Shown: positions 3,213-40,200 of the stretch, in pieces | Layout of the letters: each line of letters starts with the position of its first letter | Numbering within the stretch: position 1 is the stretch's first letter | Assembly: GCF_030463565.1 (NCBI RefSeq) | Contig: NC_134660.1 | Coordinates: forward strand, 1,910,001-1,974,000 | Reading direction: 5' to 3' | DNA from: Pelecanus crispus | Lineage: Eukaryota; Chordata; Aves; Pelecaniformes; Pelecanidae | DNA length: 64,000 bases | Program-made: the position numbers and the translations under genes | The notes under the pieces: generated by a model | Told to the model about the DNA's origin: nothing | Seen by the model: the letters and a program-made list of their open reading frames with translations, nothing else | Database searches by the model: none

Positions 3213-5363
3213 TTAGAGATCCTCCAAGCTATAGCCCCGGAATTTGAGGCTGGGGGGCACGGGGATGGCGTTGCCCCCCAGGTGCCAGCTCCACAGCGGG
3301 TGGGTTTTGGAGAGGGCCCAGGAGTTTTTGACCCCCAGGGAGGAGGCAGGACACAGGTCCCCATCTTCCCCCACGACCAGGGAGGGAATACAGGGGAAGT
3401 TGCCCATGAGGCTGAAGGAATTCCGAGGCGGGGTTGGCCCGGCGCTGCCGAGGCGTTTGCAATGAGTGTTTCCCTTTTTGGCATTCCTCCTTGGAGTCTT
3501 TTGTGGCCTCCCTTTGGAGGAGCTCTGTTGCCTTTCTGCCTCAGCGCCTCTGGCGAGGCGTCTGCGCTTGGCATTCCTTTCCGAGCCATTGCCTCTCAAA
3601 GCTTTGTTTGACAAGGTGCCGGGGCTCTCTGCTCTTTTGGAGCCGGGGGCTTTGAGCTCCGCGCCTTTGCAGGGCTCCGTCCTCCCTCCGGGCCGCAAAC
3701 TTTTCCCGTCCAGGTTGAAGCCCTTGGCGTAGCACCACAGCTTGGACTGCCGGATGAGCCGGTCGAAGTGCTCCCGCCGGGGCTCCCCCGGGGGCGCCGG
3801 GCCGGGGGTCCCCGCCCGCTCGCGGGCCGGGGGGTGCGGGGCCGAGCCCGGGGCCGGCTCCTGGGCAAGCGCTCGCCCGGCCGAAGCTGCGCCCTGCCCC
3901 TCCGCCCGCTGCCCGGGGCCCGGCGAGGCTCTATTGTTCCAGGCATCTTTGTGCAAATCCTTCCCCTTGGCGCAGGGCTCCGCGCCCCCGAAGCCTCCCT
4001 CCTTTTGTTGCGGAGCCCCCCCAGGGGTGCTGCTCGGGGAGGGAGGGGGGGAGGAGGAGGAGGAGGAGGAGAAGGAGGAGGAGGAGGAAGGGGAGGCCTC
4101 CTGCTTTGCGTACAGCTCCGGCAGCGGCTGGGCCCCCGGGCCCGCGGCTGCGGCCGCGCTCAAACTTTCCAAAGTTGACGCTCGCAAAGTCCGGGCCCAG
4201 AGCTGCTGCGAGAGGAAGAGGAGGCTGGGGTCGGGGCGCAGGGCTTTGCCCGCGCTCGGGGGGGGCTCGGCCGGGCGCTCCTCGCCGAGGGGCTCCCGGG
4301 GGGGCTGCGGCTGGAAGCGGGGCAGAGCCGCCTGCCTGTACCGGGTGCTCTGCACCGAGTCCCCGCTGCACAGCGAGCTGCTCTCCGACTCCGAGGAGCT
4401 GCCTTCCTCGCTGCTGCACGACGTGTCCCCTTCCTCCTCCTCCTCCTCCTCCTCCTCCTCCGACGAGTCGCTGGAGGTGGCGGGGCTGGAGCCGCCGAAG
4501 TCCAGGCTGGAGTCCGAGTCGCTGGAGTAGCCGGCCGAGGTGCCCTGCCGCTTGCAGCCCGGGAAGGCGGCGGCGCGGCCCTTCCTGGCGGCCGCCGGCC
4601 CCCCCCGCGCCGGGAAGAGCCCCTTGGCGCAGCACGGCCCCCGCCGGCGCCGGCCCGGCTGGGCGAGCGCGGCCGCGGGCGCGGAGGGGTGCGCGGCCGC
4701 GGGGCGCAGCAGGGCCAGGTCGCGGGGGTAGGCGGCCAGGACGCCGGCGAAGAGCCCCCCCCGGGCCGGCAGCCCGCAGCCCCGGCGGCCCCGGCCGGGG
4801 GGCTTCTGGAAGGCGGGGCAGGCGCGGAGGAAGGGCTGCGGCAGCGGCGCGGCGGGCGCCGAGCGCGGCTTGGGGAAGGCGGGGGGCGGCGGGGGGCGGC
4901 CGGGGGCCGCGGGCGCGCAGCAGCCGCCGGCTCTGCAGGGCGGCAGCAGCTGGGGCCGGGGGCAGGGGAAGAGCTCCCCCGGGGCCGGCAGCAGCAGCTG
5001 CTCCCTCCTCTTGCTCTTCCTCTTCCTCTTCCTCCGGCGGGGGCTGAGGCTCTTGCAGGAGGTGCAGAGAGCCTCCAGGTCCGCCTTGGAGATGAGCGAG
5101 CATTTCACGGCGCGGGTGGGCACCGAGTTGATGGCTTTGAGGGTCCGGAGCTCTTTGAGATCGCAGCGGCGGCTCTTGATCTTTAAGGTTTCCATCTTCT
5201 TGCTGATGGTGGTCCTGGGGATATCCTTAAACAGGTCGCTGAGGACCTGGGCCAAAGCAAACATCTGGGTGCCATTGATCTGTAAGTATCCCAAGTTTAT
5301 CCCTTCGATTTCTTGATAGCCGGCATGGAAATCCCCCGGCCTGGCTTCCCCATTGTAATCCAT
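3213..5363 (-). CDS. EPOP: EPOP orthologue with an N-terminal SKI/DACH domain (EPOP/SKIDA1 family)
   Basis: A single-exon frame of 716 codons from the ATG at 5363-5361 to the TAA at 3215-3213. Residues about 8-104 form a SKI/SNO/DACH-type domain (motifs EGINLGYLQINGTQMFALAQ and RRCDLKELRTLKAINS) closely resembling the N-terminus of SKIDA1. A basic stretch at about 108-120 (SPRRRKRKRKSKRR) is a likely nuclear localisation signal. A Pro/Ala-rich region follows, then a Ser/acidic block (about 280-335, with a run of ten or more Glu). Residues about 531-560 (HFDRLIRQSKLWCYAKGF) and the last 68 residues (PSLVVGEDGDL, HPLWSWHLGG, PPSLKF) match the conserved C-terminal regions of EPOP. In mammals EPOP is a nuclear PRC2 accessory protein binding SUZ12 and Elongin BC. 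I chose this start because it has a GCCACCATGG context and lines up with SKIDA1. An in-frame ATG 45 nt upstream (5408-5406) has a poor context. Human EPOP is 379 residues, so this protein is nearly twice as long. Neighbour MLLT6 supports EPOP over SKIDA1 by synteny. Confidence 0.9.
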   Translation of the reverse strand: MDYNGEARPGDFHAGYQEIEGINLGYLQINGTQMFALAQVLSDLFKDIPRTTISKKMETLKIKSRRCDLKELRTLKAINSVPTRAVKCSLISKADLEALCTSCKSLSPRRRKRKRKSKRREQLLLPAPGELFPCPRPQLLPPCRAGGCCAPAAPGRPPPPPAFPKPRSAPAAPLPQPFLRACPAFQKPPGRGRRGCGLPARGGLFAGVLAAYPRDLALLRPAAAHPSAPAAALAQPGRRRRGPCCAKGLFPARGGPAAARKGRAAAFPGCKRQGTSAGYSSDSDSSLDFGGSSPATSSDSSEEEEEEEEEEGDTSCSSEEGSSSESESSSLCSGDSVQSTRYRQAALPRFQPQPPREPLGEERPAEPPPSAGKALRPDPSLLFLSQQLWARTLRASTLESLSAAAAAGPGAQPLPELYAKQEASPSSSSSFSSSSSSSPPPSPSSTPGGAPQQKEGGFGGAEPCAKGKDLHKDAWNNRASPGPGQRAEGQGAASAGRALAQEPAPGSAPHPPARERAGTPGPAPPGEPRREHFDRLIRQSKLWCYAKGFNLDGKSLRPGGRTEPCKGAELKAPGSKRAESPGTLSNKALRGNGSERNAKRRRLARGAEAERQQSSSKGRPQKTPRRNAKKGNTHCKRLGSAGPTPPRNSFSLMGNFPCIPSLVVGEDGDLCPASSLGVKNSWALSKTHPLWSWHLGGNAIPVPPSLKFRGYSLEDL
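4048..4093. repeat. (GAG)n-rich trinucleotide run inside EPOP
   Basis: A GAG/GAA purine run on the plus strand. It is read as TCC/TCT on the minus strand and encodes the polyserine tract at about residues 425-438 of the EPOP product. It is a length-variable low-complexity coding repeat between the acidic block and the conserved C-terminal half. Confidence 0.85.
4432..4461. repeat. (TCC)n trinucleotide run inside EPOP
   Basis: A TCC repeat on the plus strand. It is read on the minus strand as GAG/GAA codons and gives the polyglutamate run of the acidic block. Coding triplet repeats like this vary in length between species and individuals. Confidence 0.85.
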
Positions 5364-6018
5364 GGTGGCTGGAACAATTCCGAAGGTCCCTTCGCAGGTC
5401 AGGAACATTTTGCAAGGAGCATTTACTTTGTCTCTTTCAAAGGGGGCATTGAAAATAAGGACATATTTGTTTCCACTCCCTGATCACACACATCCCTACC
5501 CCTCCGGAGAGGTGGGGGAGGGGGGAGGGGAGGAAAAAAAAAAAAGGGGGGGGAGAAAAAAAGAAAAAAAAAAAAAAAAAAAAAAAAAGCCAAAGCAGTC
5601 GATCTCCCTTTCAAACGCTCCAGTCAATGGTTTGCAACATCTTCCAAACACCCGGTTCCTCCGCCTGTACCGGAGCTTGACTCCTCGTCTTCCCCCTCCC
5701 CAGCAAAAAAAAAAAAAGAAAGAAAAATAAAGAAGTCAAACATCTTGCATCCTCCAGGCTCCCCCCGGCCAGCTCCCACCCCGCGGCCGCGCACCCCACC
5801 TTCCAGTCCAAAAATAAATCTCTTGGGGGGGGGGGGGGGATGGGGGGGGATCAACAAGCACAGCCCCCCCTTCGCTGTGCAAAGCCACTGAGGTGCTTGA
5901 GCAAACAAAGCTACCGGTAAGGGGGGGGGGGGGCGGAAAAATGGTAGCGGAGGGGGGGTGCGGGAGGCGGGGGGAGCCCCGGGGCTCCGTGCGGCTCCCA
6001 CCTTCCCCGGGCTCCGCA
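5364..6018 (-). other. EPOP: Probable 5' leader of EPOP
   Basis: This lies between the presumed start of transcription and the start codon. It contains a compound purine tract at 5533-5588 (A and G runs on plus, so T/C-rich in the transcript), an A run at 5705-5718 and G runs near 5825-5840 and 5920-5934. The minus-strand sequence just before the start codon reads TTGTTCCAG then CCACCATG. A 5' intron ending there is therefore possible, but the pyrimidine tract is weak. Confidence 0.45.
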
Positions 6019-9900: not shown

Positions 9901-10856
9901 AAAACGGGAGAGATGCTGGCGGTGGGAATTGGGGCGAGGGCAGGGAGTGAGCCAGGAGGAATTCCCAGAGCAGCTGGCACTTCAGGAGGATACATCAGAT
10001 TTACCGTGAAAAAAGTGATTAGAAACTACTACTGGCCCAAGTGACTTATTGCAATTGCGAGGAATCGTTTTATTTACTTTCTTTTCTTGCGAGAAACAAA
10101 TCCCAGAAAATGAGGTGGCCAAAACTATGCCACGATCCCTCCACGCAGAGATCCCTAAAGCAAGGGACAGCGGCCGTGCCCCCGTACGGAGCAGATACCC
10201 CCGGGTAAACCTGGAAACCAACGTGGAGAGGCTGCAATTTCCCACCTTCCCGCTCCTTGCCGGGGCAGGATGGGCCCAGTGCTCCCGCCGGGAGACTCGG
10301 ACCCGCTGGGAGGGACGGAAAAAGCCCTTTGGCTCAGATACAAGGGGTGTTTTCAAGGAAAATAGCGAAATTCTGATTTTTTTTTTTTTTTTTAATAAAT
10401 TTCAAACAGTTTCTAAAAGACCTGCAGGCAGCCCACCGCATCTGGGGGAGCCGCAGGCAGCCCAGCACCAGGCACTGCTTAAAGCCCCTAATATTTTGAT
10501 CAGAGGCCGTTACTCCTGACAGGCACTTAAACTGTCCGGGATGAAAATATTCCTACAAATCACTTGCTGCACTGACTTTTTAAACGTCTCTGGTACATTT
10601 TACAGGCTACAGGAGGGAGCCGGAGAAGCAGACCCAAACCCCACCAGCCCGGCCTGCAGGACAGATGGACGGACGGGCCAGGGCCAGCCCGGAGTTTAAA
10701 AAAAAAAAACCTCCTTCACTTTGGGGTGGTGGGCGGCTTCGTAACCGCTCTCCCTGCTCCAGGACCCACCTTTACGCTGCCAGCAGCCAGGGATTGCTAA
10801 AATGCTCTTAGATGTGCTCAGGGACAGATATTCCCTCTCGTTCACATGGGATAGGC
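6211..10856. other. Intergenic, EPOP side; no gene seen
   Basis: There is no coding exon I can support. The stretch has T and A runs (6374-6390, 6744-6762, 6930-6957), degenerate TATTTGTATG-type repeats at about 8785-8905 and a short TA run at about 8357-8368. The DNA around 8.6-9.6 kb is GC-rich. An AATAAA on plus at about 9651 sits in an A-rich stretch with no gene before it. Confidence 0.6.
8785..8905. repeat. Degenerate TATTTGTATG-type tandem repeat
   Basis: Imperfect repeats of 8-12 bp with the recurring words TATTTGTAT, TATTTATATATTTG and GTATGTTTG. This is simple-sequence DNA with no coding sense. Confidence 0.6.
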
Positions 10857-10947
10857 TTATTTTTCAGGATTTCCCTCTTATTTTTCAGGATTTCCCTCTT
10901 ATTTTTCAGGATTTCCCTCTTATTTTTCAGGATTTCCCTCTTATTTC
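10857..10947. repeat. 21-bp minisatellite, four copies plus a partial one
   Basis: Four essentially identical 21-bp units start at 10857, 10878, 10899 and 10920, followed by a partial unit from 10941. Each unit holds TTATTTTTCAG followed by GATTTCCCTC, so on plus it looks like a pyrimidine tract plus a 3' splice acceptor. The near identity of the units points to recent expansion. Confidence 0.95.
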
Positions 10948-13900
10948 TTCTCCCTGAGCAGTTTGTGAATAATATTCAATGACAGCACCGAAAAACATCT
11001 CTCCATTCTCAATCTAAACTTCGAGCACGTTGCATCACTAATGAACAATACTTTAATAAATCCTACCATTCCCAAAATAATATTTGAATTCATCTATTTA
11101 TTAATTTTCGTATTTAGAAGAGGAAGCCAGTGGCTGAGAGGAACAGCAGAGCGTGCAGCCGTGCAGGGCGGTGTATCTGCATGCACCGGGTGGGGATAAT
11201 TTGCAGCAAATCTCTGCTGGGATGCAAGGGCCGGTATTAGTAGATGTTTGGTTCTTTTTGCACTTTTTTCTTTAGGTACTATCCCGGTGCAAACAAAAGC
11301 AGTATTTAGTGACAATTTATAAAGATGCAAATCCCGCTCCCCTCTCTTTTGTTTCAAAATACAAAGACAGAAAAGTGGGGTTAGTTTGAAAATAGGCTCG
11401 GCTTGAGGGGCTGCAGGCTGGGGCCATCCCCGCTGCTGCCGTTGTTCCCTTTTCCTCCCCGTAAAACAACACGGGGTTTGGGGGAAAAAACCCACACAAC
11501 TCCCCCCAAAAAAACAAAGAGCAAAAAACCATCGAAAGCGTGCAATCTGATGAAAACTGCAGGGTTTGAACTGCGGGAGAGGCCTAGGAAGAGCAATAGG
11601 TTGCATCAGACCAAATGGTGCCGCTCAGACCGCGTTGAAAAGGTTTGGAGCCTGGCTTGGAGTAAAGCCGAGAGATTTAAGGCAAAGCCGGGGCAGGTCC
11701 CGGGGAGCAGATCCCGAAAGGATGGAGAAGCGCCTCGTTATTTTTTAATCAGCTGAGCTGTGTTTGCTCCGGAGCTCCTTCGCGCAGTTTTACCGGCGTG
11801 GGAGGAGGCTCCCCGTTCCGGGAATTAGAAACGCGCCCATCCTTCCACCGGCTTCAAACATCCCAAGGTCGCTTGTTCAAACTTTCTGTTTTATTTCTGT
11901 CTTTCTTAATAAACAGCCTTTCACCATCCTCTAACAAAGAAACCACATTTTCTAGTGAGCAGCTGAAGGAAATTATACAGTAATAAACACTGCCGATTGG
12001 AAAAAAAAATATGTTTGTTTGTTTTCCTAAGCAAATACAGCTAAATACTTCCAAGAGGGTTTCTTCTCCTGGAGAAATCCTTGCGAAGAGGCTTGGAGGA
12101 GGGTCCTGGTAAAGCCGGCAGCTTCGAGGGATGCGATGGGAGGCTGGAAGGGGAGAACCTCCATTTTCCTGCTGTCTTCAACGAGCCTATTATTTCCCCA
12201 ATTATTTAAAATAATATTTCTGTGGCCATTGAGAGAAGTGTATGTGTTTAAAACAAACAAACAAAAAAACCCAAACCCCCAAAACAACAGACTTCTAAGG
12301 AAGAGGAAGAATGAGTTTGTAGATGGAAGATTTCAGATTTCATGCCTCGATCTTAAAGCCAGCAGAGATTTTGCATTATTTTTCTGTCGCCTTTTGATGT
12401 TTCCATATTACATTGTGATTTGGTTGTTTTCCCTCTTCTCGCTTAATCCAGGCTCTTACTCCTTCTATATGGGAACAACTACTAATAAAAACATTTGCAG
12501 GTTAGTAAATTATAAGCCCAGAACATTTCCCCCTTAACAAATTTCATCTGAAGAAATCTTAAATTCTGGGGTTTTTTTCCCCTTTAAATCTAGCCCGGCT
12601 AAACCAGGGAAAGTCTCTTATTATGTCTAACCCATTGATTTACTACTAACACGGGATTTTGTTCGCTAGTTCAGTTTAGAATTAAAAGAATGCTGGAAAA
12701 TATTTTTGTTGCTAAGATAAGCTTAACCCAAAACTCTTCCTTGCCATTTAATAAGTGCCGGTTTCAGGAGAAATTAAAGGCGATGCAAGAAAGCCACAAT
12801 CTTTCAGTCTTTTTATAGGACAGGGAATGGTCTTGGATATCGCCTCTTCCCTCAAAGAGCATTTTATATTCTTTGGGAAACATTTATCAATTCTTATTTA
12901 AATTGCACTCATACCTACAATGCTTTATTCCTTAACTTTTAAGTGTTAGATTTAAAACAATTATGACTTAAAATTCCTCCGCGGCAGACAAATAACCCTC
13001 GGAGCATTTTTAAACTGTGTAAAGTTTCGTGTTGTCAAACTTTAAAAGGAAAAAAAACCTTTTTTTTTTTTTTTTTTTTACCTTTTACAAAGTATTTCTC
13101 CTGCCTGTTATTGATTGACAAGTTTATTATTATTATGAATGGATTCTCCCATTTCCCAGTCCTCTTCAAGGCCTGATGTGGATTGAGAGCCTGACCAGTT
13201 GCTTATTGACCCATGATGGCTATACAATGACCCTGCTGCCCCCAGCCTGACCCTGGGACCCCCGAAGGACCCAGCCCCACAGAACAGGGCTCAGATATGC
13301 AAAGTTGGAGCTTTATGGGGTTTGGGGAGGGGAGGAGGGGGGGACGTTGCAAAGTGGGCGAGGGTTTCATTAACAAAAATGTGTTTATTGTAAATAAAAA
13401 AGGCACAGGGGCGGTTTAAAGGAACACGTCCTAAAGGATCGCGGCTACTTTCCGGATGGGGAACGCTGGAAGCGCTGGAGCCCGTTTTATCCCAACGCAC
13501 GCCTAACCGGCGACAATAAAGCAGAAAGGCTGACACTCGCTCTGCTGAGTTTCCCAGCCGCCCGGGTGATGTTCAGTAAGTATTGCTCGATTTCAAAAAG
13601 TTACCGAGTCTGCTCAGGTTTGAACCGGCAGCCTCCCTTGGGAGGGAAATAGAGAAACCCCGCGGGAAGGCCCACTCGCACCTCCGCTCTTTTCCCTTCC
13701 CTCCCTGGGAGCATCCCTGCGCGCGGGCGGCTGCGTGCTGCCCAAGTGGGAAGCCGTGCCCTCGTTTTGTGCCGCGGTCCGGCGCTCGCACAATGAGAGG
13801 AAGCGAGGCCTTTAAAAATGTAATCAGCAGGGATGAATGAACTAAAAAAGGTTAGAGTGGATATCAGCATTAATATTCACCCTTTGTCTTTTTACCCGCT

Positions 13901-15170
13901 AAGTGAGGAAATGAAGGGGAAAGACATCTCCTCCTACCCCTGAAGTGCAGCTCCGCTGCTTCGTTACTGTACAGGGTCCGTGGGCGAGCTAATAATTATT
14001 TGTGAGAGGTGAGAGGTGGTACGTGGCCCAGAAAGCGCCTGTTTTGTGAAACAGCATTTCGCTCCGTTTCAGAAAGTAAGGGGATCTGCTCTCCACCCTC
14101 GCTCCCTCATTTAATGGAGATACAGTTGTTTAAATAATTTCCCTCTTCCCAAAACAAATGCAGGAGAATGAGAGCTCATTTTTTATCCTAATTGATGGAT
14201 CACTGAAGACAAGCCTTTGAAGAAAACGGCTGTCAACAGTGGGAGATACCCGGAGCATCTGGGTTAGATAGGTATAAAGCAAAGAGCAACCTGCATTCTT
14301 TGCAAGGCTGGATGCTCTCAGATTATAAACCACGGCGATTGCTTTTGATTTCACCATAAAAAACAACAGCAGCAGCAGCAGCAAGTTGTTCTGACACTCT
14401 CAAAACATCTGGATTGTAAAGTTTGCTGGTTTCTGGCAACAGCAACAATAATAAATAAAATCTCTCGCCGTACGGGCAGATCCCCATGGTTTCGCCAGGG
14501 GTTTGGCTCGACCCGGCCAAGACGTTTGTTCCGCTGCACGACAGAAAACGTACATTTGCGTGCACATCCCCAACACCTCCCCGGCAGCGGATGCAGGGGG
14601 TAACACACCAGAGCTCTGCGGGTCCAAAGAGAAAAAGCTCTTGCAATTTCTAATTGCGGTGCCCGTGCACCTAAAGGCAAGAAATAGCAGATCTGGGGGC
14701 TCTTCTCTGCGTGTGTTTTTAAATTGCCTGGATTTTGTTTGAAATCCTGCGTTAGGGGAGAGATTTGCACAAAACCTGGGGTGCAGGGGTACAGAGTCGT
14801 GTCAAACGCTCGTGGGGCACAAGGAGCCCTGGACCAAAGTGTGTCCTTGCATGTCCTGGTGCGTGGCACGAACAGGTCTGTGCACACATGGACACACGGA
14901 CACGCGGACACGCGGACAGAGGTGTGGGGTCTCCATGCCAGCACGACCTGGGCATGAGCTGCTCTACCGGCTGTTGAACTGGGTTAAACCCTGGAATTTG
15001 GGATGAAAAAAGTTACTGAAGGGTTGAGGATTGTTCTCGAGTACTTTCCGCATGTTACCCCGTGGGTAGGGGAGGAGGTTGCATCTGTTTGTCTTTATTT
15101 GATTTTATTATTATTTTTTTAACACCGTGGTATCTCCCAGCTGCCAAATGGTTCTCGGTTTCAGAGGCAC
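10948..15170. other. AT-rich single-copy intergenic DNA; no gene seen
   Basis: There are no coding exons and no recognisable transposons here. Base composition is much more AT-rich than on either side, with many homeodomain-type TAAT cores, and TTATTGATTGACAAG at about 13109-13123 resembles a PBX/HOX composite site. An A/T run lies at 13050-13080. This is a reasonable place for conserved enhancers, but that is inference. Confidence 0.5.
14364..14384. repeat. (CAG)n microsatellite
   Basis: About six CAG/AGC units lie in non-coding AT-rich DNA. It is probably length-polymorphic and is not in any exon I can support. Confidence 0.85.
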
Positions 15171-15479
15171 TGAGACCTAAAGGGAGAGGAAGGCACTGAG
15201 CTGGGAAACAATAAAATAGAAAATATTTGCGTTTCGCTCCAAAGTGGACATTTCAGCTTCAGCTCCACTTTCTAGGAATCGCCTGGCTCCGTGGAGGGGG
15301 GACAGGAGAGCTTGTGGCTGTCCCCGATGTCCCCCCCCGGCAGCCCCTGCAGCCTCCTTTGCTGGGGGTGGCGGGGGGGTCTCTCGTCCCCAAACAGGGA
15401 TGGGACAGGGCGATGCCTTTGGGGAGCGGCTTCGGGGCCACTCGCGAGGTGACATCTAAAAATCGAGGTCCCCGAAGGA

Positions 15480-15735
15480 GCGGACACCGGGGCGGGGCGG
15501 GGGGGGACACCGAGGACAGGGACGGGAGGGAAACCGGACACCGGGGCGAGGGGGACACCGAGCACCGGGACAGGGGGAACACCGGGGCGAGGGGGACACC
15601 GAGCACCGGGACAGGGGGAACACCGAGCCCCGGGACGTGGGGGGGGAAACACTGGGGCGAGGTGGGACACCGGGCACAGGGACGGGGGGGGACACCGGGC
15701 ACAGGGACGGGGGGGACACCGGGCACCGGGGGCAG
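15480..15735. repeat. GC-rich minisatellite of GACACCG/GGGACAGGG units
   Basis: Repeats of about 41 bp (for example starting near 15554 and 15595), each made of related half-units such as GACACCGAGCACCGGGACAG and GGGGGAACACCGGGGCGAG. They degenerate towards both ends. The plus strand carries frequent runs of three or more G. Confidence 0.85.
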
Positions 15736-16179
15736 GCGGCGGCACCGGCTCCGCGCCGGCGGTGCCCGGCCGGGGTGGGCGACGATCGCTACCGAGGGCT
15801 GGGGGCAGCGCCGGGGTCGGTGGGAGCCGCGGCGGGGCGGGGAGCGGGAGGGGGGGAGCCGCGGCGGGGCGGGGGGGGTGCCCGGCCCCAGCCCGGGGTG
15901 CCCGGCGGGCGGGGGGCTGCTGTAGCCGGGGCGTCCCGGGATCCAGCTCTGCCCCGGCTGTTCCGCCTCTTCCACCGAATTTTCCCTCTGGTGCTCGTCG
16001 GCGGGGACCCCTAAACACACGAGCGGGGGTCTCGCCCCGGGCAGGAGGGTGCCGGCCGCGGGGCGCTGGGTGCCGCTGCCGCCCCTGCCCTCCCCGCTGC
16101 CGCAGCTGGGCAGGGAAATGCTCCCGCTCCCCTTCCCCTTCATCCCAGCGCCCCTCTGCCCCCCCCCGCCCCGGGCAGC
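15736..16179. other. CpG-rich intergenic DNA; no gene seen
   Basis: Very GC- and CpG-rich sequence between two minisatellites. Several frames are open on both strands only because stop codons are rare at this composition. It might be a CpG island, but there is no gene evidence. Confidence 0.5.
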
Positions 16180-16566
16180 CCCTTTCCCAGCCCCTTCCCA
16201 GTCCCTTCCCTTCCCCAGCCCCTTCCCAAGCCCCTTCCCAAGCCCCTTCCCAGTCCCTTCCCCAGCCCCTTCCCAAGCCCCTTCCCAGTCCCTTCCCTTC
16301 CCCAGCCCCTTCCCAGCCCCTTCCCAGTCCCTTCCCTTCCCCAGCCCCTTCCCAAGCCCCTTCCCAGTCCCTTCCCTTCCCTAGCCCCTTCCCAGCCCCT
16401 TCCCAGTCCCTTCCCTTCCCCAGCCCCTTCCCAAGCCCCCTCCCAGTCCCTTCCCTTCCCCAGCCCCTTCCCAAGCCCCCTCCCAGTCCCTTCCCTTCCC
16501 TAGCCCCTTCCCAGCCCCTTCCCAAGCCCCTTCCCAGCCCCTTCCCTTCCCCAGCCCCTTCCCCCG
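16180..16566. repeat. CCCTTCCCAG minisatellite (about 390 bp)
   Basis: An array of 10-11-nt modules of the types CCCTTCCCAGC, CCCTTCCCAAG and CCCTTCCCTT, grouped into higher-order units of about 28-50 bp. The complementary strand is a nearly unbroken series of G runs of three or four spaced by two or three bases, so it can form many G-quadruplexes. The open frames across it (GKGLGRG on minus, PSPFPSPAP on plus) are by-products of the repeat. Confidence 0.95.
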
Positions 16567-16956
16567 CCAGCACCTCTCGGCACCGGCACCCGAGCTCAGC
16601 CCGCCGGTAGCTTTCCCCTTCGCCTCCGGCGATGCACTTAAAAAAAACCCCAAAATAAAACAAATCAGAGGAGCCTCTCGGCTGCCCCTTCCCCCGGGAG
16701 GGTCTGTGCCCGCGGCTCCCGGGCACCCCCTTGCACCCCGCTTCCCGGGGGATCTGGGCTGGAAGGACCCGTTCCCCAGGGAGCCTCAGCCCAAGCCGCT
16801 CCCTGAGGAAGAGCGAGGTCCCAGCGCGGTTTTTTTCTCTGCTAAACCCGGACACTCCCGGGAGGGGGAAATTTTGGCTGGCGGGGTGGGGCAGGGGAGA
16901 GCGGGGGCTGGGTCGGACAGACGGGGGACCCGAGCAGAGGATGGACGGACGGTCGG

Positions 16957-17014
16957 GTGGATGGATGGATGGATGGATGGATGGATGGATGGATGGATGG
17001 ATGGATGGATGGAT
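16957..17014. repeat. (GGAT)n tetranucleotide microsatellite
   Basis: About fourteen perfect GGAT units bounded by GGTCGG on the left and TGACGGG on the right. It is probably highly polymorphic. Confidence 0.97.
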
Positions 17015-19190: not shown

Positions 19191-19204
19191 TTTTGAGTCT
19201 GGAG

Positions 19205-19941
19205 AGATCATAGTATCATACAGTGGTTTGGGTGGCAAGGGACCTCTAAAGGTCACCGAGCCCAAGCCCCCGCCATGGGCAGGGACATCTCCGACCCGAG
19301 CAGGCTGCTCCGAGCCCCGTCACCCTGACCTGGAACGTGTCCAGGGACGGGGATCCCCCACCTCTCCGGGCAACCCGTGCCAGCGGTTCAGCACCCTCAG
19401 CAGAAAACATTCCTTATACCCAGTCTGAAGCTCCCCGCTTTTAGCTTAAAACCGTGACCCCTTGTCCTATCGCTGCAGGCCCTGCTAAAAAGTCCGTCCC
19501 CACCTCCCTTATAACCCCCTTCACGTATTGAAAGGCCGCAATAAGGTCTCCCCACAGCCGCCTTTTCTCCAGGCTGAATAACCCCGACTCTTTCTCCATA
19601 GCAGAAGTGCTCCAGCCCTCTGATCATTTTTGTGGCCTCCTCTGGACCTGCTCCAACAGGTCCATCTCTGTCCCACGCTGGGGACGCCAGAGCTGGACGC
19701 AGTGCCCCAGGTGGGGTCTCAGCAGAGCGGAGCAGAGGGGCAGAACCCCCTCCCTCGACTTGCTGGCCACGCTGCAGGGGATGCAGCCCAAGGAGACGGT
19801 TGGCTTCCTGGGATGTGAGCGCACATTGCCGGCTCACTTCCAGCTTTTTTGAGTATGGAGAGATCATGGAACCACAGAATGGTTTGGGTGAGAAGGTACC
19901 ACCGGTACCCCCAAGTCCTTCTCCGCAGGGCTGCTCTCAAT
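19205..19941 (-). mobile_element. CR1 LINE, 3' fragment, with a rearranged internal junction
   Basis: From 19205 the plus strand has the reverse complement of a CR1 3' end (ATCATAGTATCATACAGTGG, then GGTTTGGGTGGCAAGGGACC). It continues through typical CR1 3' body words such as GATCATTTTTGTGGCCTCCT and GCACATTGCCGGCTC. At 19847 the expected body sequence is interrupted by about 50 bp resembling a CR1 3' terminus, and the body resumes near 19898 (GGTACCCCCAAGTCCTTCTC). The coding remnant on minus is frame-shifted, so this copy is inactive. CR1 is the dominant LINE of birds and spreads by target-primed reverse transcription. Confidence 0.93.
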
Positions 19942-28182: not shown

Positions 28183-28287
28183 AGGAGATGGTGGGAGGCT
28201 GCTGTGTCTGTTCTGATGAGCGGGGCTGGGCGGAGAACCCGCTGGTCTACTGCGACGGGCACGGCTGCAATGTGGCGGTGCACCAAG
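28179..28287 (+). CDS. MLLT6: MLLT6 coding exon 1 (PHD1, first half)
   Basis: Encodes residues 1-36 and the first base of codon 37, with zinc ligands in CCVC, YCDGHGC and the following H. The donor is GTAAGG. Mammalian AF17 has DGHACSVAVHQ where this has DGHGCNVAVHQ, a minor difference between the zinc ligands. Confidence 0.97.
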
Positions 28288-31200
28288 GTAAGGCACCGGC
28301 CCGGCGCCGCCGCCAGCACCGGGGCAGCGTGGGGCCGGGCCGCCGCCCCCCCCCCCCCCCCTCCCGCCGGGCGCCCCCGGGGAGGCCGGGGGGGTGCGGG
28401 GGCGGCGGGGGGGGGGGGCTTTGTTTTAGCCCTATTGTTTAAAATAACGGTGTCGGCGCCGGCCTGGCTCGGCGGAGGAGCCGGGGCCGGGGGGGGAGCG
28501 CGGTGTGCCGGCGGGGAGCGGAGTTGGCCATCAGCTGCGCCCCGGGGGGGGCACGCAGTTCCCGGGGCTCGGCGGGTGCTGGCTCCCGGCAGCCGGCGGG
28601 GACCCCCGGCCGCTTCTCTCCGCGGAGGGAAGGAGCGGGGGGGGGTCGGCCGGGGCGGTGGAGCCGGGCCCCCCCCGCCCTGCCCCGCTGCCCCGGGAAG
28701 GGCGGGCTGCCGAGCCCCGGGCCGGGAGGAGGGCAGCGCCGGGCCGGGAAGCGCCGCAGCCGCCCCCGGGGGTCCGGTGCCCTCGGCTCGGCCCCGCATG
28801 GCCCCGGGTAACCCCCCCGGGGGTCCGGTGCCCTCGGCTCGGCCCCGCATGGCCCCGGGTAACCCCCCCGGGGGTCCGGTATCCTCGGCTCGGCCCCGCA
28901 TGGCCCCGGGTAACCCCCCCGGGGGCGGCGGCGGGGCCCGGAGCTGCCTCCTCCAAGGGCAGGGAGGAAGGCAGCCCTCCTCCTCCTCCCAGAGATACGG
29001 GCTATTTGCATTTTAAATGACTTGCAGCCACGCACCTAACGCACGGTATCGGACTGGAAAGTTTGTCCTCAGGTCTCCGGAAAAAAAAAAAAAAAAAAAA
29101 AATTAAAAAAATACGTATATTTGCTTTCGTTCAAACCTGGCAGCAAGGCAGGGTGATTATCCTGGTTGGTTTGTTTTGAATAACACGAAGGTTTCTGGTC
29201 TCATCTGGCATGTCTGTTTTTCCATCTATTATTATCCTATCCATCTACCAGCGCATCTCCAGCCTCTCCCTGTGTAATCTCTCCCTCGGTGTCTTGATGC
29301 ACGCTCCTGTCTCCAGCTGCGAATGTGTCCTGCTCTGCCTCTGCCCGCCTGTCAGGCGCAGGTCTCTGGGTCTGTAGGTTGGGCTTGCTTTTGCTTTTCG
29401 TACGTTTGGTGTATCCACGCTTACGGCTTCGGTAAGAAGTCGCTTACAACCAGGTGACTGAAGGGGAGTTAAAATGAGGAAGTGAAGCTCACGGGGGATT
29501 TCTCTTCATTCGGAGGCGATGCTTGGGTGTCTCCCGTCACCAGGCAGCTTCTCCAGGGTGCCTCCGAGTGACCCGGCACGATGCGGGTCTCTCTGGAAGG
29601 ACGCTTCTTTCTGTTTTGATTTTGCTGGTCTAAGTCTTCCATTCTTCCCGTTATTTATCAAACCACATGCTAGAGAATAGGGTTCTTCATCGCTCTCTTT
29701 TTTGGAGGGAGATAAAGGGCGTTGGCGTCCTTATGCCCGCTCCCAAGATGAATATAAACACTTTTGTTTGGCGAGAACAGTTCAAACGTGCAAGAACGGT
29801 TTCAAATGTGCAATGCTTTTATTCTTTTAGGGTGCCTGTTTGTAGGCCCGCACAGGTACGGAGGCGGGATGCGTTCGCCGTTTGCTGCGGCGGCGGGGAA
29901 GCGGGCGCGTGGCGTTGTTTTGGTACAGTTGGAACATGTTAGAAAAGTCTCAGAGAGGGCACTGCTTGTGTGTTTGGAAAATACAACTGTCTATTTAGGT
30001 CTTGTAAGAGTCCTTCAGGATATAATAATTCATAAGGAGCGCAGCAGTGTGTAGTGGATGTTCTTCAACCCTCCTTTTAAAGCCTGCTCATAAACCTAGC
30101 AGTAGTATGGTGTTTTGGTAGGCTTTTATTTCTTAAATAGAAACAAACCACTGTAGGGGATCATCTCGGTCATCTACTCTCATTCCGTGCAATCACACAC
30201 TACTGGGTTTGGTATCTCTTTGTACTGCTTGAATATCCACAAAACCAAATTACCTTTTGAAATGATTGTACAGTTAAATAAAGAATCCTGGTTTGTTTTT
30301 TTTTTTTAAGCTTATGTTATAGCCACGCATTAGGGCTCATTCTTAAAAATATCAGTACCATTTCTGTGACAATGGTTAAAAATCGTATCTTTCCAGTAAA
30401 AAATTAAAAACGTTAGCAAAACCATCCGATTGGAAATGAAGACACTAATAAGATAGTTAAGAATGTTTACAAATCATGTTTTCAACTCTGCCTTACTTAC
30501 GTTCTGCCTTGCTCCTTGTTTTTTTCCTTGTTTTCTTCCTTTTGGAAGCAGTGGGTACAGAAGCTCGCACTGGCTCCAGCTGAGTGCTTGCTTTTGGCCC
30601 TAAGCCCACTGCTAAAGATGGACCCAAGGCAGGCTCCTCTGTCATTGCTTTCATGTAGTTTCTATTTTCTTATGCGTATGCCTTGGCTCATCTTGCAGTC
30701 AGCTCTTTCAGTTTTAACTCTACAATTGCGTTCGTTTTCCTGGCCGATGTGGCATAATAGACATTAGAGAGACGGAGAGAACCTATTGCGGGTCGTGTCT
30801 GGTCCATCCCCTGGGGAACATCGCAGGATTGCTTCCAGCAGGATATTTTCAGATGCTTTGTCCAACCTAGTTTCAAACGTCTCAAGTGACTGGGATTCCA
30901 TTCCAACCGCCAGCTCGCATTTGAAGGTGGAATAAGGAAGATGTAATTTGTTCTTTCCTAGGAGACTCCTATACCCTCGTCTGAGATGCATAGCCTTACT
31001 TCTTTACCACCATCTTTACCAGCCTCTGTTGCTTCAAACCCACCTGCGTGGTGGCTAAGAGCCCTTTCGGGGTCAGAAATGCTTCCTTTGGGACTCACAA
31101 AGACCATCCTTGGATGGTTAAGAGGGAGAAGGTCACCGAAGGAGGTGAACAGTCTTCAAGCAGCACTGCCCCATCAGAGAAGGGAGCTAATTTTAAAGAA

Positions 31201-34200
31201 GTGGGAGTTCCAACTTGCAGAGGGAGACCCTGAGGGCATCAGTAGTGGTGTAGAAAGCAAGAGGGACGTACGGTATACCTGGATAAGAACACCGGTTTTG
31301 TTGGGTTATCAGCTGGACACTTGTACTAACACAGAAGCCGTTCCCAGGAGTAGCCCTAAAAAGCCTGAATTCGGTGATCTTGGAAGCATGCTCTGAAAGG
31401 CTGCCGCTGGATGTGGCTTACAGACTTGAGGGTGTGAATGGGAGTTTCGCTTGGTGTCTGTCTGAATTCTCACTGAGACGGTTTCCTTCGTGACGCTGAG
31501 ATTTTATCTTAGTTCTAATTATGGTTTAAGGTGCTTCATAGCCATCCATGTCATAATTTTATGTTTAGATCACTAGTGACACTTGAAAAGTTAAGGGGTA
31601 AGAAATTGCTCTATTTGTGTTTGCTAGACCAGAATTAGACACAGTTTATGAAGCACTCCATTCCCACTTAGGCCAGATTTTCATAGGAATTTTTCATACT
31701 GGGCATGAGCTTATTTGAAAACTTGAATAAATGTATAACACTGGACCTCTTGCAAAAAGCTGTCTGCTGTTGCTGGATATGGAAGCTAGAAAGGGGAATA
31801 AAATGCTGCGTAGATCTAATTTTTGGTTTTGTCACCCATCTCTGACTGATAAGAGCTCTGGCAAACTTTTGTATGCACCTGAGAAATTAAATAGTCAATT
31901 TAAAGATGGTCTGATGAACTCTCTTTGCTTTTCTTCCAGCTTGCTATGGAATTGTCCAGGTTCCTACCGGACCCTGGTTCTGTCGGAAATGTGAATCTCA
32001 AGAGAGAGCCGCCCGGGTGGTGAGTACGAAGCGTGCTTGTACTACACGGAACAGGTTCATTCGATGCCCTTCGTGTCTCTGCTGGAAGCAGCGTGGTCCC
32101 CTGGCAAAAGTGATAGTGCCTGGCATTTCAGCGCTCCCGTGCTTGTAATCCCGGCTCTGCCTGTAACCTGCTATATCTTGTTTATACAATAGGAATAATT
32201 GCATCAAACCACTTTATACAATGCTGTTAGCCATTTTGATGAAAATGCTGCCAGAGGGGCTTTTAAGCAAGTTATCAGTGACAACATGTTTAAGTCTAGA
32301 GACCTTGATCTTCTAAAAAATAATGGCATTCCTCTAAAAGGTGGTTTCCCTCCTGCTTTTTCTGTTCAGCTCCTCGGGAGGTTTTGGAGTGGAGGGAAGT
32401 TGGCATCACCTGGGATGCTGCTGTACTGTCAGAGTTATCATACTGACTGACAGGATGGATTGGCATTCGTAGCTCGCAGCAAGTCTCCTGCATAAAGTCT
32501 TCTGGGTTTGTAAAAGAGCACAGAAAATTACAGGAAGCTGGATCAGGGTTTAGTTTCTGTCTAAGTAGCAATTTAGCAGTATAGAACACTTTACAAATGT
32601 TCTTAATTAATTCTGGCATTTCCCGGTGAGGCAGGAAAGTGGAAACAATCAAGCCAGGACTGCCTCTTAGGTCCGTCTATGTGGCAAAGTTATTTGTGTA
32701 GTAAACCAGGCTGTGAGTTTATAGCGCACCAGCTACTCTGCAATAACTTCCCATGTGAGCCCTTATCAGATACGGCTGCACCAACCAACTGCTGAGGCGC
32801 GGGCTGTAGATCTTTAACAGGTTAGTTATGCCATGGGTGCTGCTTTTGCCATGCGGTAAATCCAAGATAACTTCCCCCCTTTGCTTCCTTGAAGATGGAT
32901 TTAAATTAAACTTTGGCTTTCCTTAAACACAGAAGGCCTCAGTCAGCACGAACAACATTTATTAATGCCTGCGCTGCCTTCTGAACTGGTTTAGCTAAAT
33001 CTTTTCTAAAGTACGCACCTAGCGAAGTTGATGTAGGTGACCTCTGAATCTGCGGATCTGTGCAGGCCCGAGCAAATAGCGTGCTCCATCTCAGCTGGGC
33101 TCTCTGCTTGCTGCAGCACAAAAATTTAATCTGTTTCACAGATGGGCGAAGAACTTGGCAAAGATGAGTGAATGGGGGAATTAGGTATCTGTACCATGCT
33201 TTCTACATTGCATTAACTCGTTCCTCGTTGGAAGTGGGAGTGTAAACAAGACCAGACTTTCAGACCTGAGCTCTTTCCCCATTGTAAGATGCTGCTTTTA
33301 TGTGCACTGCAGTAAAGAAGATCAAATGTGTCTTTGAATGGTTTTACATCCTGCAGATAGTTTCATAGCAAAGAAAGGAATTTGGATTTCATGGGCCTCC
33401 TTCCCCCCGCTCTCCCAACCGTGTAGGCAGAGAGAAGCTCCTCAGCGTTAGCCACAATTCAGCGTCAGCTGTAGTAGTACATGTACACGCGAGTCCTCCT
33501 CACCTGCGCTCGTTGCAAGGACTGCAACTTCTCACTTACACATTATGCACTCCAAACTGCCTCCAAGGTATCAAGAAAACAATACCCCCGCAGGTGGCTC
33601 CTTATTTAACTTGTCCTCGGTGAAATCTGTTAGACAATGCGTGGTGGGCTTCAGTCATGCTATTCAGTCCTGGGGCATTCAGCCCTGCTACTATAATAAC
33701 TGAACAGTGATAATCTTCCTTCCTAAGCAGAGCTGGGGATGATTTCCTATCTAAATCCCTCACCTTTTCAGTTAAACACCAGCAGTCATAGCAACAGACA
33801 CGCAGATGGGTAAATACTTAAAAAGAATCTAGTTCTTTGATGTAGAGAACAGCATGATCAGAGTAAGGGAAATGAGTCAGGTCTTACGAGATCTGTGCAC
33901 GGCTCTGTTGCTAAAGCACTTTGAATTTGTGCTCCGTGGTCCAGCGAGGCTGGAGGGTGTGGCTCCTCCACTGCCCTTGGCTTTCACTGCATCTCGCTGT
34001 GCCTGGCTTTCTCCAGCTGCGAAAGGGGCATTATCAGCCTGCAGACACTGCCTTGAGGATCCTGAACGAGAGATGCTGCTATTTGAGCGCTAAATACACT
34101 GACAGCAGCAGCAGGGTGAATTGATATTTCTATTTCTTTCATAATGACTGTGTGGCAAACTCCTTTGAAAAACAACAATGTTTTTCTTCCCACATCTGCC

Positions 34201-37200
34201 TTCATAGAAGAATCTTAAAGCGGTTTACAAGCTTTGTCCATAACAAACGTATTTATTGGCTAAATATTGATACTTCTGCTTTGAAAATGAGATATGGAGG
34301 CATGGAGATTGTTGTACGCCTTGGCGAGTTTTTAAAAACATAGGTCCCGTGATTACTGTATCTCTCCTTTGGAGAGATGGACTCCGTCCCCTCTTCAGCT
34401 TTGGAAAGAGAGCTCAGGAGCCCTAACTTCAGTCAGCAGGTATAGTCGCTTGGTGGTAGATCCTGGAGTTAGAAGCCCCAGGGGGTCGGGAGCTCTAACC
34501 TTACCCATCACAACCTGGTTTAAATCAACCAAGCTCGCTCTTTTCCCAGAGTGGAAATAACCCTGGAGACTGCCTTGGCCTATGCAGGTTGAATAAAAGG
34601 AAGAGGTACGGCTAATCCCTGCTCATAACCCCTCCTCAGATGCTCAGGTCCCTAAAGGATGCTGTGGACACTATTGTGCTTACAGTAAGCAACTGAAAGC
34701 CCATCCACTTTGTAATCAAATTGTCTAGGAAGCCCGGTGAGCTGCGATGGCCAGAGGGCACTCATGTGAGGGATCATGTGAAGGCTTTAGCTGTCATTTC
34801 GAGGCAGGGCTATTAAAAGTCTTGTGTGGGGCCGATGGAGCTGTTAACCCCTCTTGTTACAATCAGAGCTTTGCTAATCGCATGGTGGGAGAGCGGCTTT
34901 GATCTGAGGGGTGGAGGGAAGAGCGAGGGGCCTTTTCAAGTGCAAATTTCTTATTACAGTGTCTCAGTTAACCCAGTTCTTTTTCTGTCTTGGCTCTGCC
35001 GGGCTTCCCATAGTAACTGTGAGAGCAGCTCCCCAGCCCTCCGGCAGCCCGGACCTAACCAGGAGCAGTGAGAAACACCTCCTGCGGTCATCCATCCGTA
35101 TTTCAAACTAAGTCGCAGGAAAAGCGAGACGGGCTGCCGATGACGGCACTCGTCTTTGTCCCCTCGTCTCTTATTTATATGTTATCGCGGGGATTTCGTG
35201 CTTGCCAGAGGCGCCTGTTTGACAGCCCCGCACGCTTGACTCCCACGAAAGCGCTGGAGGATTGGGCTGAGCCTCCCTGCTGCCCAGAGCATTGCAATCC
35301 TATTTATTGTGCCCATCTGTCCAGGAGGTAAAACTTCAGCAGAGGAAATCTTGAGCTTGCTTGAGGAAAACCGCCTTTGTAGAAGGTCCTCAGGGACTAC
35401 TCGGTGGCAGAGGCTTTTGCTCGCGGCCAGTGATTGCTCAGCACGTTGGTGTTTTTCGGGGCATGGAGCACCTGCCCTGTTCCGCTCGCCAGAGCCGAGC
35501 GATCGCGGCGAAGCGCCGGCGGGCGAGAGCGCCAGGTCCCGCACGCTCATAGCGGCGCGGTCTGCCGTCTCGCTTTGATGCCAGGCACCTCATTTCAAAA
35601 CTTTCTGATGAGGCACGTTTTTTCACAGAAAAATGGGTTTTTTTTTTTCGTGTTGTGTTTTGTTTTGTTTTTTTAACAAATCAGACGTTTCCACTAGGGC
35701 AGGAAAACGGTTGCACCTTGGAGGTTTTCAGGCCTTTTTTTAAGTCAAACATAACAAAAAGCACATCGAAATTTTCCCCGAGTGACGCCATGAGGAGGCT
35801 GTGACCATTTTCGGGTGGCCTAGCCTGGGAGGAGCCCTCAGGGCCGGGAGCGTGTTCCCCCATGCGTGGCAACACGCCCCAAAACCGCCCCAAAACCACC
35901 CCAAAACCTCCCAGCAACGCTTCAAAAGGGCGTTGTGGCCGGCGGAGAGCCCTCACGTAGCGATCAGCCGACGTGGAGGCTGATGTCGGCTGGGCAGGGC
36001 TGAAATTAGGGAGGGAGGAAGAACGAGTGCAGGACCTCGCCCTCCGCTGTGAGGCGAGGAATGGCGGCGAGGGCCGTGGCACTGGGTTTCCCTGGCTCTC
36101 GCCATCCTGCCTGGCTGGACCCTCCCCGTCCCCTGGCCGGGTGTCCGTGGCGGGGGGTGAGGCCTGTCCCCACCCTGGCCATGAGGGAGACCCTCGGGTG
36201 GGTTTGGGGCCGCTGCTGGCCTTGGAGGCCTCCCTGCCCTGCGGGGCCTGGCGTGAGGGGGCATCTCCCGGGCGGAGGGGGCTCATCTCCGACCGCCCCG
36301 TGGCTGCTGGCCCCCGGCGGAGGAGGCGGCGTGACTCCCCCTCACGGTTTTCCCCAAAAGAAGCCATTAGCGACCGGGCATGGAGAGGGGCGCAGGGTCG
36401 CTCCCGTCCCTCACGGCCTGTCATGGCGCCGGGCCTGCAGCCTCCCACCCAGCATGGCAGCGCTCGGGGAGCTTCTTCCACCCTCGCAGGTGGTGAGGTC
36501 TCCGGCGCCGATGCTCCCCTCACACCCTCCCCGTCCCACCTCAGCCCTCCCCGGGGCTGGGGCTGGGGGGAAGCAGGGTGCCCAGCCATTGGGGCCAGGC
36601 TCGCCATGGCCCCCCGCACCCCACCAGCAAAAATGTCACGACAGCCTCACCCACCTCTCATGAGACTGGAAAAAAAAATCACAAGAGAAAGAGAGAAGGA
36701 AGGAAGGGAAGAGGCAAAGATAGATAATGGCTTCTTTTTATTTGCCTTCTGCTCTCTGAGTCATGGTTTTCAGTTTTACTCCCCAACCGCAAAGACTAAA
36801 ACTTTTTTTTTTTAAAAAGCCCCGTGAAAGTCAAGGTTCACTTGTAGCCCAGTGGCTCTTGGGCTGAGACTTTAAATGCATCCCCGTCAGACAGGACGAT
36901 ATTGAGCTGTGTCAGAGTATCTTTTTGCACCCAAACCGCTCTCAGCCCTTCTTCCACTTCCTCTCTTTGAAAGCAGCCTCATCTTTCATAACCATGTTGT
37001 AAATGAATCATCTCTTTTCTGGCCCTGCGCCCCTGAGAGTTAGATTAAACTTGTTGTTTCTGCTTAATTTCAAGAGATGTGAACTCTGTCCCCACAAAGA
37101 TGGAGCCCTGAAACGGACCGACAACGGAGGTGAGTACCTCTGCGCAGAACCAGGTATGTCGTGCAGAGCCTCCGGGGACTCGGCAGCTGTGATGGGCACA

Positions 37201-40200
37201 AAATAATTAATTTCTGAGCCTACGTCACCTGAAAGGGAAGGCTGGAGGCTCCAGAGGAATGAAAACACTCTGCCTTTTTCTTAACAAAACTTCACTTTCT
37301 GAAGTCTCCATGGCGAGATAGACCTTTCCCAGGGCGGGGGGGGGGACCTGCCTGACCTCTGGCTGGCATTGAAGCACAGCCCCCGAAATGCGCAGTTTCT
37401 TGAGTTTAACCTCGCAGGAATCGGTGCATGATCTGGCATTGTTTACAGAAGTGTGGAAGTTGCCGAGTTATTTGCTGCTCGCTTGCACAGCAGTGGTGTG
37501 ATCCTCAGGTTAAACAGAGCCTCAGCCTTCAGTCCCCATCCAAGAGGAGGGACCAGGATGCAGTAAAGATGTTTTTGTCTGCAGGACTTACCTGCTCATC
37601 ACTGATGCTTCTCAGCCTCTGGTACTGTGAAGTACCGTGGAGTCTGATTTCAGTTGTCAGAGCTTGTAGCTACTGATGCTACTGGCTTTATAGATCAAAC
37701 TTAATTTTTCTCAAAACCTTATTTTTCAGGAAAGCTTCTCTACCTACCCGCCACTTACCTTAATACACAAAGAGTTAAATTAGGCAAGGAGGTCTTTATT
37801 CTGATGGATCACATTTTTAGAGAAGAAGCCCTAAGTCCAGGATATTTCGTAGAAACAGCTGCTAGAGCTGGTCATAAGTACCAAGAGCCTTAGTGTAATA
37901 GCACGAGTAACGTGTTGGGGGATTGTTTTATAACAACATAGCACCTTCTTCCAAACATGTTGCTACATGGTTTGGTCGGGTCTGTGTAGACAGGCACAAA
38001 AGCATTACAGCCATGTCACTGTACAGAATTATATAGCCCAAGTACTTACCGTGCTGTGTGATTCTGTAATCGTGGAGTTTGGTTCTGCCTGCCCAGGTGA
38101 ATCCATCCTAATTCTAGCTAAATCCTTCCAGCGCGGTAGCCGTACTGATATGGATCAGCCCCCAAAGGCTCCTGACCTTCAAACTTTCTCAGTTCTGTCC
38201 TGACCAGATGGAATTTCAACTTACACATCTGATTTGGGAAGTGTCTTGGTGGATTTAGATTTTAATATAACTTGGCTTGCTGAAAAAGAGCCGCCTTTAG
38301 CCGTGGATAACAGCCAATAAAGGGAGCTTTGTTTCCAGTGGCATGGGACTACACGTCAAACCTGTCCCATCAGCATCGTTTACTGCTTGGATGCTTTTCC
38401 TGGGTTTGCTTAGGTCTTCAACTCTGGGTCTCAAGTCCTGAGAGGGTGCTTTTAAGAATAATGAGCGTTGTACATTTCTTTTCCCAAAGAAATCTCTGCT
38501 TTCTTATTTAATCTGGACGTGGTATCCGCCTATCTTTCACCCACAAAGGATTTTATTCCTAACCAAGTTACAACAAGCAGTATTTCAAATCTAACATCTA
38601 ACTTAAGTTGGCTCCCTTCCTACACTGTCTTCCTTCTCTCCCTCCCATGCTTGTCTGCAGCTCTGTCTGAGTTTAAGGCTCCTCTGGGTTGCCCCATGTG
38701 AACCTCCGCTCTCTGTCTTGTTTGCTTCCCCAGGGTGGGCCCACGTCGTCTGTGCTTTGTACATCCCAGAGGTGCAGTTTGCCAACGTGCTTACCATGGA
38801 GCCAATTGTCCTGCAGTATGTACCCCACGACCGCTTCAACAAGGTAAGGCCATCTCTTTCTCCTGCTGCCCCAAGTGTACTTGCCCCACCTTGGCTTTTT
38901 GGGGTCATCTCCTGTCCAATTTATTTTAATTTCCAAGTACTCAGATTCCTTTAACTGACAAAGTAAATCCCCATTCCTGCAAATAACTTTTTGGTCCTCC
39001 ATTTCTCTCTTCCCCAACTCCCTGCAACTTGAGCAATCTCCACCTTGGAGTTCCATGTTGGTTACTCCACATTTTGATCTGACGCAGTTGTTATTTGGGG
39101 AGAAAAAGAGTGAGTTTTGTGCATGCTGCTGAGAAACAACCCAGAGCTGTTGTCATAGGAGGGAGATGACTGGACACGGAGTTATGAGTCCTTGAAGGCT
39201 TTGCCTCCTGGTGAACAGTGAGAGTGAAGCAGACCCTTTGTCTGCCTCTTTAAGTGAGCACTTACCCTTTTTTTTGCAGACCTGCTACATCTGTGAAGAG
39301 CAGGGCAGGGAGAGCAAAGCAGCCTCTGGAGCATGCATGGCCTGTAACCGACACGGCTGCCGACAAGCTTTCCATGTCACCTGGTGAGTTCCCCACAGCA
39401 TCACCCCAAGAATAGCCCAGCTATTGGTTTTGCTGCTACAGCTTCGAGGCCACACCAAATGGGTGGTGTGGAGAGTTGGGCTAATCACCCTGCGTTGATT
39501 TTGTGAGAGGGTATCTCGTCCTTGCTCAGTTTGTGAGGGGAACTTCCCCAGGAAGGCTGAGTTTTCACCAGTGAGCCTTCCCTGCTGAGAACGAAGGCTG
39601 GGGATTTCCCTAAGACTGTGTGGAATCCAAGAAGAGAAGAGATGAGTCACAACCCAGGAATGTTCCTTCTCCAGCAGACCACATGCAAAAGTATCTTCTA
39701 GATGATGTGATTTTAAGGGCTGATAGCCTCCTGTACCCTCGCAGCCTGAAAACAACATCGCCTATCAGCAGAACAGGGAGATTCCCAGCTTTACATGGAT
39801 TCCTTGCTCATGATGTGTCTTTTGTTGGAATTGTTACTGGTCTCCCAGGCCTCCCTTAAGAAAAACAAAAATTGCAAGACAGTCTGGTAGAAAAGTACTT
39901 ACAATTTTGAAGATCTTAATACGAATTAAAAATAGTCTGAACCTTTTTCTCCCTCCTTGCATACCATTTGCCAAGCAGAACAGGAAACTTCAAGACCCTG
40001 CCTGGGTATCCTGAACTGTTCTTTGCCTTTTGATGGGATATGTGGTCTGGTTGTACAATTTGCTTTATCCTCCTCCTAATTGTATGTGTTTCAGTGCCCA
40101 GATGGCTGGCCTCTTATGTGAAGAGGAAGTCCTAGAAGTCGACAATGTCAAATATTGTGGCTACTGCAAGTACCACTTCAATAAAATGGTGAGTTTTTTC

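Follow-up and report, generated by a model that had tools for sequence, protein, structure and literature searches.

The 64,000-nucleotide stretch of the Pelecanus crispus genome analyzed here (hereinafter the window; C18:1910001-1974000) carries a gene that very probably corresponds in birds to mammalian EPOP and that retains a SKI/SNO/DACH homology domain (DHD), which mammalian EPOP lacks. Taken as a joint reading, we consider it highly likely that this gene is a one-to-one EPOP orthologue in the ancestral architecture with SKIDA1 as its paralogue, that its C-terminal region (CTR) connects it to SUZ12 and PRC2.1, and that its DHD guides targeting. The main support for EPOP orthology comes from gene order. 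What our analysis adds is a paralogon and a block, HFDRLIRQSKLWCYAKGF (hereinafter the HFDRLIR block), which is absent from the SKIDA1 of this genome and presumably present in human EPOP.

A bird gene combining DHD and CTR is already known as SKIDA1-like. Such genes have been described in some fish and in the majority of amphibians, reptiles, and birds, whereas mammals have EPOP instead of SKIDA1-like (Fischer, Weber and Liefke 2022, PMC8864842); therefore, a DHD-bearing gene of the EPOP type is not new. In the same account, SKIDA1-like arose by duplication of SKIDA1, EPOP is suggested to have come from SKIDA1-like via replacement of the N-terminus, the two are stated to share the CTR only, and the N-terminal BC-box by which mammalian EPOP binds Elongin BC is called mammal-specific (PMC8864842). 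This account is repeated in PMC9916924, where zebrafish skida1l is suggested as a possible EPOP orthologue. The pelican gene has the same DHD-bearing N-terminus and CTR in one protein, is distinct from the SKIDA1 of its own genome, and is SKIDA1-like; we found no difference between them, and the passages cited here from PMC8864842 and PMC9916924 mention neither the gene order nor the HFDRLIR block. Our literature searches on SKIDA1-like and skida1l found no further treatment.

The gene is one uninterrupted open frame of 716 codons (716 aa; Table 1). An in-frame ATG upstream, at 5408, opens a longer ORF (3213-5408 on the minus strand, 731 codons) and adds 15 residues. When these two ATGs, both of which lie upstream of the DHD, are compared, the Kozak context at 5363 (GCCACC before ATGGAT) is better than that at 5408 (TGCAAA before ATGTTC); hence, 5363 is the likely start, which agrees with the gene limits in an earlier note on this DNA, and residue numbers are counted from it. 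Long ORFs by themselves are unimpressive at 70% GC (200 base shuffles at this composition gave a longest ORF of 251 aa on average and 510 aa at maximum), so the claim rests on domain matches. A search of the protein against NCBIfam gave no match.

Table 1. Features of the window (positions counted from its first nucleotide)
Feature	Position	Strand	Basis
EPOP orthologue / SKIDA1-like gene	3213..5363	-	ORF and Kozak context; Pfam PF02437, PF15223
SKI/SNO/DACH homology domain (DHD), residues 18-104	5052..5312	-	PF02437, 55.8 bits; SKI, SKIL, and Dachshund chains
Highly basic residues immediately following the DHD, SLSPRRRKRKRKSKRREQ	4998..5051	-	read directly
Ser/Glu-rich acidic tract, counterpart of the SKIDA1 acidic tract	4359..4526	-	alignment with SKIDA1
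SVQSTRYR, aligned with SKIDA1 SVQSIRFR right after the acidic tract	4335..4358	-	alignment
HFDRLIRQSKLWCYAKGF (HFDRLIR) block	3717..3770	-	motif located in frame
CTR, about residues 648-714, matching the EPOP chain of PDB 9xzi	3222..3422	-	Pfam, PDB search
MLLT6 exons, PHD/zinc-knuckle part (28185-28289, around 37087, 38733-38843, around 39283)	28185..39300	+	

The DHD was recovered with the Ski_Sno_DHD profile (PF02437; E 4.4e-15, Pfam cut-off 24.5 bits) over profile positions 22-108 of 109 (87/109). The earlier note's placement of a SKI/DACH domain in the first 104 or so residues held; as to its description of the domain as full, the first 21 profile positions are unmatched, and the SKIDA1 DHD is similar in extent (profile positions 24-108). 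The domain also matched PDB chains of SKI (1sbx, E 6.2e-7), SKIL (3eq5, 1.3e-6), and Dachshund (1l8r, 4.5e-4). The fifth of the five PDB matches of the protein up to E 10, a sigma factor at E 3.9, was set aside as chance. A search of the whole assembly (1.31 Gb, 310 contigs) with PF02437 yielded 8 DHD matches among 20 candidates scored, and a tree of these eight with the SKI and SKIL chains arranged the genomic DHDs as four pairs. One unites the EPOP-like gene with SKIDA1 (100% UFboot; 61.6% identity) and stands apart from SKI/SKIL and from the two remaining pairs, which we take to be DACH1/2 and SKOR1/2; all of these have the DHD in common with the EPOP-like protein, at only 23-29% identity to it.

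It is very improbable that the DHD is a relic whose frame stays open through high GC, with translation beginning at an internal ATG and the product working like the short mammalian EPOP. Long ORFs are indeed not rare at this composition, but the identity to the SKIDA1 domain and the 55.8 bits in Pfam indicate that the DHD has not decayed, and the ATG at 5363, upstream of the DHD, has a strong Kozak context. The retained DHD is basic: its net charge is +7, as in SKIDA1, against -3 in SKI, -1 in SKIL, and +3 in the presumed DACH pair, and about the same as in the presumed SKOR pair (+6). The 26 residues that follow carry a net charge of +9 (+5 in the corresponding SKIDA1 stretch) and include the SLSPRRRKRKRKSKRREQ stretch, a putative nuclear localization signal or DNA contact. 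Together, the basic domain and basic stretch fit a DNA contact, with a SKI-like cofactor contact as the alternative. A single-sequence structure prediction of the DHD gave a mean pLDDT of 39.4 and was not used.

At the other end of the protein, the EPOP family PF15223 matched residues 633-711 (87 bits, E 2.6e-24; Pfam cut-off 25 bits), and the best PDB match was the EPOP chain 9xzi_D (E 3.5e-18, 67 C-terminal residues), which is presumably human. The C-terminal signature of EPOP noticed earlier in the sequence is present where it had been placed, comprising HFDRLIRQSKLWCYAKGF, VVGEDGDL (3354-3377), and HPLWSW (3285-3302), the last two likewise on the minus strand. As an EPOP-specific test PF15223 had to be rejected: its genome-wide search gave two matches among three candidates scored, namely the EPOP-like gene and SKIDA1 on contig C2, and SKIDA1 scores 575 bits over profile positions 37-414 as against 89 bits over only 325-414 in the EPOP-like protein. 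Despite what it is called, the Pfam family EPOP thus matches SKIDA1 much more strongly than it does the EPOP orthologue, and annotation that goes by its name alone can be misled. With those three candidates scored, no PF15223 match in this genome fell on SKI, SKIL, or the presumed DACH1/2 and SKOR1/2 pairs.

Because only three CTR sequences were at hand, shared sites were counted instead of building a tree. Over the 64 ungapped columns of the EPOP-like protein, the 9xzi EPOP, and SKIDA1, 28 are identical and 11 all different; sites shared by one pair number nine for EPOP-like and 9xzi EPOP, nine for EPOP-like and SKIDA1, and seven for 9xzi EPOP and SKIDA1, counts that hold for these three sequences only. 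Similarly, the 9xzi EPOP chain scores 68.6 bits against the EPOP-like protein and 70.8 against SKIDA1. Judged by these comparisons, the CTR alone appears to hold no preference for EPOP over SKIDA1 and does not decide between them. Such equal closeness would also suit a gene that is a second SKIDA1 copy and distinct from EPOP, in which case birds would have lost EPOP or never had it and mammals would have lost SKIDA1-like; we regard this as unlikely, even though it agrees with the published wording, in which SKIDA1 was duplicated to SKIDA1-like and EPOP occurs in mammals without SKIDA1-like (PMC8864842). The same source itself derives EPOP from SKIDA1-like by N-terminal replacement, which speaks against a second SKIDA1, as do the two features that tell EPOP-like and SKIDA1 apart, namely the HFDRLIR block and gene order.

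SKIDA1 (C10orf140) of the same genome lies on C2 (plus strand, 21.473-21.475 Mb) as a single frame of 854 codons from MGDLKSG. It shares with the EPOP-like protein the DHD, the acidic tract, the SVQS-R-R block, and the CTR, in the same order; it differs in lying beside MLLT10, in lacking the HFDRLIR block, and in ending with KFRKFN without the EPOP tail. The best match to the HFDRLIR block in this SKIDA1 is at chance, with 225 of 500 shuffles scoring as high, and the block found no match in Pfam or PDB. We presume that human EPOP carries it with 17 of its 18 residues, and its absence from SKIDA1 then argues against a second SKIDA1 copy. A literature search for the block did not find the peptide mentioned among the matches listed. 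Between DHD and block the comparison with SKIDA1 is less informative: the acidic tract is aligned across low complexity and is hence weak evidence, the 16-residue block around SVQSTRYR is equaled by 13 of 500 SKIDA1 shuffles, and the alignment of the whole middle region (score 222, against a maximum of 163 in 200 shuffles) is confounded by low complexity and was not relied on. A BC-box pattern, used without a positive control, gave nothing above chance in the EPOP-like protein: it occurs in its strict form zero times there and once in SKIDA1 (0.2 expected in each), and in its loose form twice in the EPOP-like protein against 1.8 expected.

The earlier note had placed the gene beside MLLT6 as in mammals, and exons on the plus strand, which we take to be those of MLLT6 on their motifs together with the following matches, do begin about 28.2 kb into the window, some 23 kb from the EPOP-like gene. 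The 37-residue exon 38733-38843 has AF-10 as its best PDB match and reaches 30 bits with PF13832 (cut-off 27), whereas exon 28185-28289 has only 17.2 bits with PHD_2, under the cut-off of 28. A genome search with PF13832 gave 18 matches, but since MLLT6 and MLLT10 have this domain split over exons, neither site was among them; we therefore used exon 38733-38843 itself as the query. It shares 92% of its residues with an exon at C2:21421779 (minus strand), about 50 kb from SKIDA1, which is taken as MLLT10; the next best of the nine matches reaches 60% at most. The interval between the EPOP orthologue and MLLT6, scanned from 10000 to 30000, holds tandem repeats at 16176-16563 (a C/T-rich 40-base unit, 9.6 copies) and 16939-17014 (GGAT, 19 copies), and a GC-rich 51-base repeat (3.2 copies, 98%) lies at 28763-28925, just past the first MLLT6 PHD exon.

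The correspondence extends beyond MLLT6. RAWUL matches of the PCGF type, nine in the genome, include C18:1996310 and C2:21098328 (both minus strand) and, below the cut-off, C2:21097852; PIP4K2-type kinase exons, 17 matches in the genome, include three at C18:2019342-2023352 (minus strand) and four at C2:20955625-20984794 (plus strand). The order on C18 is EPOP-like (minus; 1.913-1.915 Mb), MLLT6 (plus; from 1.938), RAWUL (minus; 1.996), and PIP4K2-type (minus; 2.019-2.023), and that on C2 is SKIDA1 (plus), the MLLT10 exon (minus; 21.422 Mb), RAWUL (minus; 21.098), and PIP4K2-type (plus; 20.956-20.985). By their positions, the PCGF-type and PIP4K2-type genes would be PCGF2, BMI1, PIP4K2A, and PIP4K2B. 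With EPOP/SKIDA1, MLLT6/10, PCGF, and PIP4K2-type genes in each, the two blocks look like sisters of a genome duplication. In these blocks (C18:1913213-2023352 and C2:20955625-21475113), three of the four gene pairs are Polycomb- or chromatin-related and still lie close together.

In a horse gene list the order is PIP4K2B, PSMB3, PCGF2, CISD3, MLLT6, EPOP, and SRCIN1 (PMC11238448), so that the neighbors of the pelican gene, MLLT6, PCGF, and PIP4K2, are the same as those of EPOP there, again contrary to a second SKIDA1; in a second horse list these genes recur, but MLLT6 precedes PCGF2 and CISD3 (PMC7341496), and a pooled pig list has them with EPOP farther off, after MRPL45 (PMC10734178). SKIDA1, for its part, lies very close to MLLT10 at 10p12.31 (PMC9208280), whereas the pelican gene lies on C18 beside MLLT6. 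Neither a separate short EPOP nor a second MLLT6, which side by side would by the earlier note have refuted its reading, was found in the same genome within the reach of the searches. The last 199 residues of the EPOP-like protein gave 14 genome matches, namely itself, SKIDA1 (E 6.1e-19, 51% identity), and 12 at E of at least 4.4, with no short EPOP among the best candidates scored, although an assembly gap could hide one; the nine matches of the MLLT6-exon search included no second MLLT6. That EPOP and SKIDA1 descend from a single gene with a DHD, as the earlier note proposed, fits both the paralogon and the DHD pairing and had already been concluded in PMC8864842.

The EPOP orthologue would then preserve an ancestral layout that begins with a DHD and basic patch, continues through a long linker of low complexity containing the acidic Ser/Glu tract, and ends with the HFDRLIR block and a SUZ12-binding CTR. 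EPOP and SKIDA1 are paralogues that probably stem from the early-vertebrate genome duplications, each adjoining an MLLT6/10 gene. Mammalian EPOP (C17orf96) resembles the pelican gene in its CTR, its place beside MLLT6 and PCGF2, and, presumably, the HFDRLIR block. As the earlier note had it for human EPOP, the mammalian protein has 379 residues (PMC4860827) and no DHD (PMC8864842), with the BC-box region where the pelican gene has the DHD; the supposed mammalian loss of the DHD agrees with that published absence, but PMC8864842 presents a replaced N-terminus and not a simple loss. Whatever lay ahead of roughly the HFDRLIR block has, in the mammalian line, probably disappeared or given way to the N-terminus that binds Elongin BC. 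A more specific joint proposal, to which we give even chances, is that SKIDA1-like is EPOP, that their homology reaches past the CTR and takes in everything from the HFDRLIRQSKLWCYAKGF block to the C-terminus (roughly the final third of mammalian EPOP), that the block is a second conserved interaction site, specific to EPOP, and that in mammals a 5′ truncation inside the disordered linker removed the DHD, a BC-box arising there. Since both the bird frame and SKIDA1 are single open coding frames, such truncation would be likelier than exon swapping.

Mammalian EPOP requires its CTR (residues 285-379) to associate with PRC2, and this region, which also suffices for the association, binds the VEFS box of SUZ12 (PMC4860827). 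By analogy, the bird CTR would dock on SUZ12 and make the protein, which is presumably expressed, part of a PRC2.1-type complex; the basic DHD-bearing end may contact DNA or a corepressor and help choose the sites of the complex. Mammalian EPOP-PRC2 prefers GA-rich dinucleosomes although no DNA-binding motif is known in EPOP (PMC12890814), so sequence preference can also arise by routes other than a DHD. DHD-type and PRC2 functions may be joined in one chain in the bird protein.

The paralogon and the HFDRLIR block leave the main published story unchanged: the former adds support from gene order, and the latter, if the human letters are confirmed, extends homology past the CTR. Our analysis fixes the identity of the bird gene. 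If SKIDA1-like is EPOP, as the gene order suggests, birds would offer a natural test of a PRC2.1 in which a DHD replaces the Elongin BC link.
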